From NCBI RefSeq assembly GCF_002795405.1, contig NZ_PHGZ01000013.1, positions 124,001 through 188,000 on the forward strand: a DNA stretch of 64,000 bases, written 5' to 3'. The stretch comes from Caviibacterium pharyngocola (GTDB lineage Bacteria; Pseudomonadota; Gammaproteobacteria; Enterobacterales; Pasteurellaceae). Below, piece by piece: positions 26,414 through 61,021 of this stretch. The notes beneath the pieces are model-generated. The model was not told where the DNA came from, did not search any database, and saw only the letters and a program-made list of their open reading frames with translations. How positions within the stretch are numbered: position 1 is the first letter of the stretch; every line of letters begins with the position of its first letter. Both the position numbers and the translations under genes were made by a program.

Positions 26414-26428
26414 GCGAAAGCTTGTGAA

Positions 26429-26458
26429 ATCCCGACGCAAATGTCGGGATTTTGTTTT
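26429..26458 (+). terminator. Intrinsic terminator of surA
   Basis: ATCCCGAC-gcaaat-GTCGGGAT, then TTTGTTTT. A TATAAT (26458-26463) follows at once and is the likely -10 of the next unit, giving a leader of about 150 nt. Confidence 0.9.
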
Positions 26459-26495: not shown

Positions 26496-26620
26496 ATGTT
26501 TCAACACACAGAGCATCACAAGAGCGAGACCCTATGTGTTGCCCTGAATTGGAAGAGGTTACGCCTCTTCCAATTAAATTATCCGCCGTAAATGGCGGGG
26601 TTTCAACCATAAGGTAGATA
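26496..26620 (+). ncRNA. Conserved structured leader of rsmA (riboswitch-like), copy A
   Basis: Shares with 59980-60102 the 5' block ATGTTTCAACAC and the 3' block TTTCA-CCATAAGGTAGATA, and the same order of stems with different bases. Stems: CAGAGCA (26509) with TGCCCTG (26540), one mismatch; CACA (26517) with TGTG (26535) around a loop with CGAGA; a perfect 12-bp hairpin AATTGGAAGAGG/CCTCTTCCAATT with loop TTACG; and TCCGCC (26582) with GGCGGG (26594) around six bases. The 3' block contains the rsmA ribosome site AAGG, which can fold as ACC-ATAA-GGT. It lies between the surA terminator and the rsmA start. No known family recognised. Confidence 0.7.
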
Positions 26621-26624
26621 TTTG

Positions 26625-27491
26625 ATGAATTCAAACAGACATTTAGGCCATACCGCGCGTAAGCGTTTCGGACAAAACTTTTTACACGATGAGAGCGTGA
26701 TTTACGGCATTGTTGCGGCGATTTATCCGCAAAAAGATCAATTTTTAGTTGAAATCGGACCGGGGTTAGGCGCATTAACCGAACCTGTTGCCGAAAAAGT
26801 CGATCGTTTAACCGTGGTGGAGCTGGATCGCGATCTTGCCGAACGTTTACGTCATCATTCGTTTTTACATCAAAAACTTAACGTCATCGAAACCGACGCA
26901 ATGCAATTTGATTTCGAACGACTCTATACGGATGAAAAATTGGCGGAGAAAAATCAAAAATTGCGCGTATTCGGCAATTTGCCTTATAACATTTCGACGC
27001 CGTTGATGTTCCATTTATTCAAATATCATCACATCATTCAAGATATGCATTTTATGTTGCAAAAAGAAGTGGTGAAACGCCTATGCGCCGCGCCGAACAG
27101 CAAAGCTTACGGACGCTTAACCATTATGGCGCAATATTTTTGCCAAGTAATGCCCGTCTTAGAAGTACCGCCGAGCTCGTTTAAACCGGCGCCGAAAGTG
27201 GATTCCGCCGTGGTGCGTTTAATTCCGCATAGCGTCTTACCGCATCCGGTGAAGGATTTATATTGGCTTAATCGCGTAACTACGCAAGCGTTCAATCAGC
27301 GTCGCAAAACCTTACGCAACGCACTTTCCACCTTATTTTCTGCGGAAAATTTGACCGCACTTGGTATCGATCTTAATGCGCGGGCCGAGAATTTATCCAT
27401 TGCCGATTATGCCCGTCTTGCCAACTGGCTTGCGGATAATCCGCCGGCGGATACGAATCGTGATGAAATAGCGGATAACGAAACGGAATAA
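26625..27491 (+). CDS. rsmA: 16S rRNA dimethyladenosine transferase
   Basis: 288 residues from ATG 26625; a TTG one codon earlier is less likely. It starts [14 protein letters not shown], has the SAM-binding [13 protein letters not shown] (about 40-52) and the NLPYNIST motif (about 119-126) typical of KsgA. It dimethylates two adjacent adenosines near the 3' end of 16S rRNA, a late checkpoint in 30S assembly. The start codon lies 10 bases after an AAGG embedded in the conserved structured leader, so translation is probably controlled there. apaH follows after three bases. Also called ksgA. Confidence 0.96.
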
Positions 27492-59979: not shown

Positions 59980-60102
59980 ATGTTTCAACACGCGGAACCG
60001 CACCGAATCGAGAGACTATGCGTTGTTCCGAGCAAAATGAGATTATGTCTCACCTAATTAATTATTCGCTATGGATGGCGGGATTTCAGCCATAAGGTAG
60101 AT
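59980..60102 (+). ncRNA. Conserved structured leader of the EamA cluster (riboswitch-like), copy B
   Basis: Same plan as 26496-26620. Stems: CGGAAC (59993) with GTTCCG (60025), perfect; CGCA (59999) with TGCG (60019) around a loop containing CGAGA; a 5-bp hairpin TGAGA-TTATG-TCTCA replacing the 12-bp one of copy A but with a near-identical 5-base loop; and TTCGCT (60065) with GGCGGG (60077) using G.U pairs. Conserved ends ATGTTTCAACAC and TTTCAGCCATAAGGTAGATA. The last block holds the ribosome site of the EamA gene at 60107. Confidence 0.7.
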
Positions 60103-60106
60103 ACTG

Positions 60107-61021
60107 ATGAAACAACAACCTTTAATCGGCTTTTTACTGGGTTTAACGGCTGCGTTTATGTGGAGTAGTCTGCCGATATTCGTTCAACAAGTCGTGAAAG
60201 TAATGGATGTCGAAACTTCGGTGTGGTATCGTTTCGCTCTTGCCGCCGTCGGATTGTTGATATTATTGGGTATCGGCGGCAAAATTCCGCGCTTGCATAA
60301 GTTTAGCCGGAGAGACGTTCTGTTATTAACGTTAGGTATCGCCGGTTTAGCGGTGAATTTTTTCTTATATAATTTGGCGTTAAAATATATTCCGCCGACA
60401 ACCAGCCAAGTATTAAGCCCGCTTTCTTCCTTTATTATGCTTATCGTCGGCGTATTACTGTTCAAAGAAAAAATGGGATTGCACCAAAAAATCGGTTTGG
60501 CGGTCTTAAGTTTCGGGTTAATTCTCTTTTTTAACGAACGCTTTGATGATTTTTTACAGCTGAATGTGTATTCTAAAGGCGTGATTTTAATGGTTTCTTC
60601 CAGCTTTGTCTGGGTGATCTATGCGATTTCACAAAAATTATTATTGGCAAAATTCAGTTCGCAGCAAATCTTATTGATGATTTATATCGGTTGCGCGTTA
60701 GTTTTCACGCCGATTGCGGATATTCCGCAAATTTCCGCCTTGGACGGTTTTCAACTGGTTTGTTTATTGCTTTCCGGTGTTAATACCATTATTGCTTACG
60801 GTTGCTATGCCGAAGCGTTAAATCGTTGGGATATTTCGAAAGTCAGTGCGATTTTGACCCAAATACCGGTATTCACGCTAATTTTTTCCCATTTGGCGGT
60901 AATGATTAGCCCGACGTATTTTTCACCGGTCGAATTAAATTGGATCAGCTATTGCGGCGCGATTTTTGTCGTATCGGGCGCGCTTTTCTCCGCCCTAGGA
61001 CATAAATTTATCAAAAAATAG
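60107..61021 (+). CDS. EamA/DMT-family transporter, paralogue 1
   Basis: 304 residues, about ten membrane helices in two EamA repeats (each ~140 residues; KEKMGLHQKIGLAVLSFGLILFF ends the first). Drug/metabolite transporters of this fold commonly export amino acids or other small metabolites. The start lies 13 bases after the conserved AAGG of the structured leader. The next two genes are clearly related to it. Substrate unknown. Confidence 0.88.
   Translation: MKQQPLIGFLLGLTAAFMWSSLPIFVQQVVKVMDVETSVWYRFALAAVGLLILLGIGGKIPRLHKFSRRDVLLLTLGIAGLAVNFFLYNLALKYIPPTTSQVLSPLSSFIMLIVGVLLFKEKMGLHQKIGLAVLSFGLILFFNERFDDFLQLNVYSKGVILMVSSSFVWVIYAISQKLLLAKFSSQQILLMIYIGCALVFTPIADIPQISALDGFQLVCLLLSGVNTIIAYGCYAEALNRWDISKVSAILTQIPVFTLIFSHLAVMISPTYFSPVELNWISYCGAIFVVSGALFSALGHKFIKK

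Follow-up and report, generated by a model that had tools for sequence, protein, structure and literature searches.

The window, the whole 64,000-nt stretch of Caviibacterium pharyngocola DNA analysed here, contains rsmA beyond the surA terminator (26424–26455). A structured block with its own Shine-Dalgarno (SD) sequence lies before rsmA, at 26496–26629. A second copy, at 59980–60111, aligns with the rsmA block end to end and has near-identical termini. Both blocks have ATGTTTCAACAC at the start, CCATAAGGTAGATA...TGATGAA at the end and three hairpins in between. The original prediction had located both correctly, and read them as a leader RNA through which translation is controlled by a small molecule or protein. 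The features are as follows.

26496–26498, + strand: ancestral rsmA start codon, now codon 1 of an upstream open reading frame (uORF); aligns with the rsmA start of 18 Pasteurellaceae that lack the block
26499–26627, + strand: probable REP2/CREN-family element, a 129-bp net insert ending in the new rsmA ATG (26625–26627); dispersed repeat, lacking from both rsmA and rlmH in relatives
26502–26546, + strand: hairpin 1, with two competing pairings (26502–26511/26532–26541 and 26509–26521/26533–26546); covariation
26549–26573, + strand: hairpin 2, loop TTACG; covariation and fold
26583–26598, + strand: hairpin 3; covariation
26496–26591, + strand: 31-codon uORF that begins at the former start codon (MFQHTEHHKSETLCVALNWKRLRLFQLNYPP); from translation of the sequence, presumed to be translated in the cell
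26611–26614, + strand: element-borne SD for rsmA, AAGG, 10 nt before the ATG at 26625; from sequence
26625–27491, + strand: rsmA (16S rRNA dimethyltransferase), the host gene; orthologues
59983–60109, + strand: second, diverged element copy, 127 bp, before an EamA-family transporter gene
59980–60057, + strand: uORF of the second copy, 25 codons

The rsmA copy folds far better than its dinucleotide shuffles (z −4.85). For the second copy the same comparison is weak (z −1.0). We aligned 40 copies, taken from five Pasteurellaceae genomes and Neisseria gonorrhoeae. Compensatory changes are present in all three hairpins, with 16 of 24 pairs changed on both sides. Double-changed cells number 59, against 24.8 in shuffles and 10–20 in slid controls, and exceed every shuffle and control. 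The paired changes first noticed between two copies are real, and the first stem proposed from them (CAGAGCA/TGCCCTG with CACA/TGTG) has covariation support that is clearest in Neisseria. The TGTGTTG of hairpin 1 is contested, as its pairing with CAACACA and the proposed first stem are mutually exclusive. A suggested tertiary pair between CTA and TAG is not conserved; the TAG after AAGG is missing from Neisseria copies. The covariation is compatible with a folded leader and equally with a DNA strand that needs to fold to move. An Rfam search, advised with the original prediction, returned nothing credible in the element at gathering or permissive thresholds. Across the window, only tRNA reached threshold. 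Three tandem tRNA genes, at 289–612, have identical Rfam scores.

A BLAST search of the source genome with the block identified 46 places, eight of them full-length at 89–100% identity. A covariance model built from 18 copies found 24 copies in this genome at E ≤ 0.006; relaxing the cut-off to E ≤ 1 raised the count to 30. Four other copies are 96–98% identical to the rsmA block. Old copies show decay. An open reading frame follows most copies, with the ribosome site just before its ATG. The host genes are unrelated: rsmA, rdgB, rlmH, dsbE/ccmG, lolA and lptD, and also an rluE-like gene, nrdG and genes for a DeoR regulator, RNase T2 and an EamA transporter. Hence, the limited gene set expected of a dedicated leader was not found. 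Recent duplication had been discounted; the near-identical copies, and orthologous genes without the block in other genera, contradict this. The block very probably belongs to a small mobile repeat present in about 25 copies. A mobile repeat with no covariation in relatives had been named as the outcome that would count against a functional RNA. We recovered the mobile repeat, and the covariation along with it. Short forms of 32 nt (ATGTTTCAACCATAAGGTAGATATTTGATGAA) occur at C41:16252–16283 and in C13 near 105932 (L086 and L085), before nrdG and a small lipoprotein gene. They fit recombination between the element's two copies of GTTTCAAC.

The insertion sites were defined by comparison with relatives. 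In 18 other Pasteurellaceae, rsmA has no block, and the first ATG of the block occupies their rsmA start position, about 35 nt after a TATAAT box. The junction reads SD-ATG/TTTCAAC...AAGGTAGATATTTGATG/AA, where slashes mark the boundaries. This is a 129-bp net insert between the ancestral ATG and codon 2. The empty site at rlmH is cleaner. Relatives carry ...TAAATGAAAATTCAG / CTCTGGGCGTAAATGAAAATTCAG, and the source genome has ...TAAATG[TTTCAAC...TTTGATG]AAAATTCAG, that is CTCTGGAGCTAAATG[TTTCAAC...TATTTGATG]AAAATTCAG, with the insert in brackets. The right junction was ATGAA in all 12 of the best copies, though only the A of this ATG had been included in the search query. An open reading frame of at least 115 codons begins at 11 of these 12. 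By comparison, the window has 50 gene starts, of which 13 are ATGAA; it contains this word 196 times in all, 22 of them strictly intergenic. One copy (L042) sits at ATGAAAGTGCGGT, an ATGAA without a normal gene; the sequence looks like an uptake sequence. The sequence is compatible with two origins of the junction ATG: duplication of a 3-bp target, or the last triplet of the element itself. Selection against insertions elsewhere, for example inside genes, may contribute to the start-codon bias. Hence, we only infer that start-codon targeting is an enzymatic property.

Among 140 Pasteurellaceae genomes the element occurs in five, from four genera. These are the source genome (G000), Cricetibacter osteomyelitidis (G039), G009 and the congeneric G050 and G053, which have at least 20 copies each. 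The plan of the element is the same in all five. A survey of 369 genomes of the class added G454, with three shorter copies. BLAST also identified N. gonorrhoeae copies that are 73–76% identical, and covariance-model matches extend down to E 2e-20. One gonococcal chromosome has 30 hits, with the plan ATG/TTTCAACACACAGG...AAAAGGAAATACG/ATGAA. Gonococcal copies lie directly before pilC (NCBIfam T4_PilC_Neiss, 740 bits), and others precede ribF, rsmA and a LysR gene. The last, to which NCBIfam gives the name YafC, we take to be crgA. The copy at rsmA/ksgA (L183; NZ_CP119140.1:342796–342935, minus strand) sits exactly at the start codon, and rsmA appears to have received the element independently in the gonococcus and in the window. 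Three further Neisseria copies (L194, L198 and L201) are apparently interrupted by other repeats. NZ_CP119140.1 and NZ_CP119142.1 are chromosome-sized N. gonorrhoeae records of 2.17 Mb that are filed as plasmids in PLSDB.

Because gonococcal copies precede pilC and a crgA-like gene, we filed the element with REP2/CREN, CREN being the contact regulatory element of Neisseria. The family was described in contexts of this type (PMC3898611; PMC9072670; PMC5079597; PMC9031163). The element is in all likelihood a Pasteurellaceae member of this family, an assignment based on the gonococcal copies before pilC and the LysR gene rather than on the meningococcal original. Where the original prediction recognised no published class, REP2/CREN is one. 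Gonococcal copies, among them one before pilC, align over their full length with the element. It measures 127–129 bp, with at least 24 copies here, compared with 59–154 bp and about 26 copies for Rep2 (PMC2267715); CREN is 150 bp (PMC9031163). The position directly before open reading frames, the internal ribosome site and the three-hairpin plan are further likenesses. In contrast, the hosts here are Pasteurellaceae, whereas CREN has been called specific for pathogenic Neisseria (PMC5079597). The host genes here are mostly housekeeping genes, and the SD is CATAAGG or CATTTAGG rather than CGAAAAGG. A literature search of limited journal coverage, and thus weak as evidence, found no description of the element outside Neisseria. 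Precise start-codon insertion, as judged from empty sites, the wider host range and the phage copies described below seem to be new.

REP2-like copies are also present at gene starts in IMG/VR phage contigs (L252:2998–3127, L255:9689–9828 and L250:2840–2995). Their host genes encode transposition protein B of a Mu-like phage, a minor head protein and a baseplate protein. The copies, in prophage contigs, were found with a Neisseria-type pattern; a first viral pattern scan gave no match, and nor did INPHARED phages. Given the copies at phage gene starts, Mu-like phages are a plausible vehicle between the Pasteurellaceae and Neisseria families. On another viral contig (L259), left and right parts of the element lie about 8.9 kb apart.

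We propose that the block is a non-autonomous member of the Neisseria REP2/CREN family, small and mobile, and that insertion occurs in the sense orientation exactly at a start codon (ATG/AA). A ribosome site and an ATG are carried at the right end of the element, and the reading frame of the host gene therefore stays whole. The SD-ATG of the ancestral gene now opens a short uORF that ends within the element. The host gene would then be initiated from the SD of the element, possibly by re-initiation and with altered expression. Taken as a whole, a mobile REP2/CREN-family repeat that enters start codons is, in our judgement, highly likely. At rsmA, 33 nt separate the end of the uORF from the new start codon. 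Of 32 tabulated copies, 31 retain an SD, and in nearly all copies the uORF closes no later than the downstream start. A conserved uORF peptide was rejected, as frames and lengths vary between copies. The effect on translation is expected to be modest.

How the element moves was considered from its ends. Terminal inverted repeats are absent: the left end is TTTCAACACACAG, compared with CAAATATCTACC for the reverse complement of the right end. Hence, a DDE-type MITE would be unlikely. Like IS200/IS605-type and REP/RAYT elements, the repeat combines this absence with hairpins near both ends and an orientation fixed relative to a short target word. Unlike them, it has no dedicated transposase that we could find. 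Our search identified no mobilising enzyme; Y1 transposases occur in 106 of the 140 genomes regardless of the element. A RAYT/IS200 link is doubtful, as the RAYT examined in the source genome has its own, different repeats and G050, with at least 20 copies of the element, has no Y1 transposase. The lack of terminal inverted repeats, together with hairpins near each end, hints at single-strand (HUH-type) transposition in trans. This is only a guess, in which a lost or unrecognised enzyme would be responsible. A RAYT-type Y1 transposase gene at L176:1699–2427 (source-genome contig C13, near 102.4 kb) is accompanied by palindromic repeats of its own (TTTATCCGACAGCGACTAAAGTCGCAATCGG), unrelated to the element.

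Other roles have been considered for the block. Structure, covariation and an internal SD would suit a new leader that binds a ligand and serves only rsmA-apaH and a transporter gene. However, the block recurs through the genome in front of unrelated genes, it is absent upstream of rsmA in the 18 other Pasteurellaceae, and the gonococcal rsmA copy is one among 30 copies in that genome. Small-molecule control of translation is not supported by these data, and we consider such a leader extremely improbable. The element could instead be kept as a working cis-regulatory RNA, which would be compatible with a mobile origin. In this case translation rate, temperature or a factor would act through the competing pairings of hairpin 1, or through the uORF, to adjust how often ribosomes re-initiate at the downstream SD. 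Covariation of the three hairpins and of the alternative pairing is in keeping with this, as are the retained SD and closed uORF. Yet the host genes are unrelated, old copies decay and the uORF is variable in frame and length. Paired changes would also be expected of a DNA strand that had to fold in order to transpose. We regard a regulatory role of this kind as possible but doubtful. An inducible promoter within the element, as for meningococcal CREN, would place its host genes under a common signal such as host-cell contact. The 2003 paper on REP2 is said to place a −24/−12 type promoter inside the repeat. CREN/REP2 has been reported to be required for contact induction of associated genes (PMC5079597; PMC9031163; PMC3898611). 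However, a scan limited to sigma-70-like promoters found none in the sense direction within the window copy. Since the −10 box of rsmA itself lies a short way upstream, the element is probably part of the leader transcript at this gene. The mostly housekeeping host genes of the source genome also argue against a shared inducible promoter, which we think unlikely.

A resemblance to CRISPR repeats was weighed in the same way. In five element-bearing genomes (G000, G009, G039, G050 and G454), CRISPR repeats have a spacer-side end like the first 12–14 bases of the element, with 12–13 of 14 bases matched. Repeat and element read GTTTCAACACTCAG and GTTTCAACACACAG in G000, GTTTCAATTCACGG and GTTTCAATTCACAG in G050, and GTTTCAATCCACTC and GTTTCAATCCACGC in G454. 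Arrays with resembling repeats are L026 (source-genome contig C19), L242, L243, L244 and L247. The source-genome system is type I-C by its Cas5c, Cas8c, Cas7 and Cas1c, and the G009 array adjoins a Cas1c gene. In G454, the left end of the element, read on the antisense strand, gives a hairpin plus handle that resembles a whole repeat. A match this good is rare among shuffled elements, seen in 1 of 1000 and 1 of 300 trials. If the left end (GTTTCAAYNCAC) copied the spacer-side end of the host repeat, the family would be tied to type I-C CRISPR-Cas. It could then be moved or regulated through CRISPR integration or processing machinery, or the mRNA leader could pair with crRNA handles. When each element was compared with the repeat of its own genome, the match was no better than in permutations (8 of 120). 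The Rfam CRISPR-DR9 match scores 19 bits against a cut-off of 45. G053 has copies of the element and, by the pattern used, no such array. N. gonorrhoeae is reported to be without CRISPR (PMC10865793). The element also differs from type I-C repeats in lying outside any array and in being, in the mRNA sense, the complement of the crRNA handle; its other 100 or more bases are unrelated. We find a tie to CRISPR-Cas quite improbable.

Exact insertion at start codons without breaking the gene would be unusual for a mobile element. Insertion of this kind would offer genes a simple, testable route to new 5′ leaders. If CREN is a mobile repeat that enters start codons with its own ribosome site, its position before pilC and crgA may partly be chance. 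The spread of the element into Pasteurellaceae and phages, if true, would provide natural replicates for testing its function.
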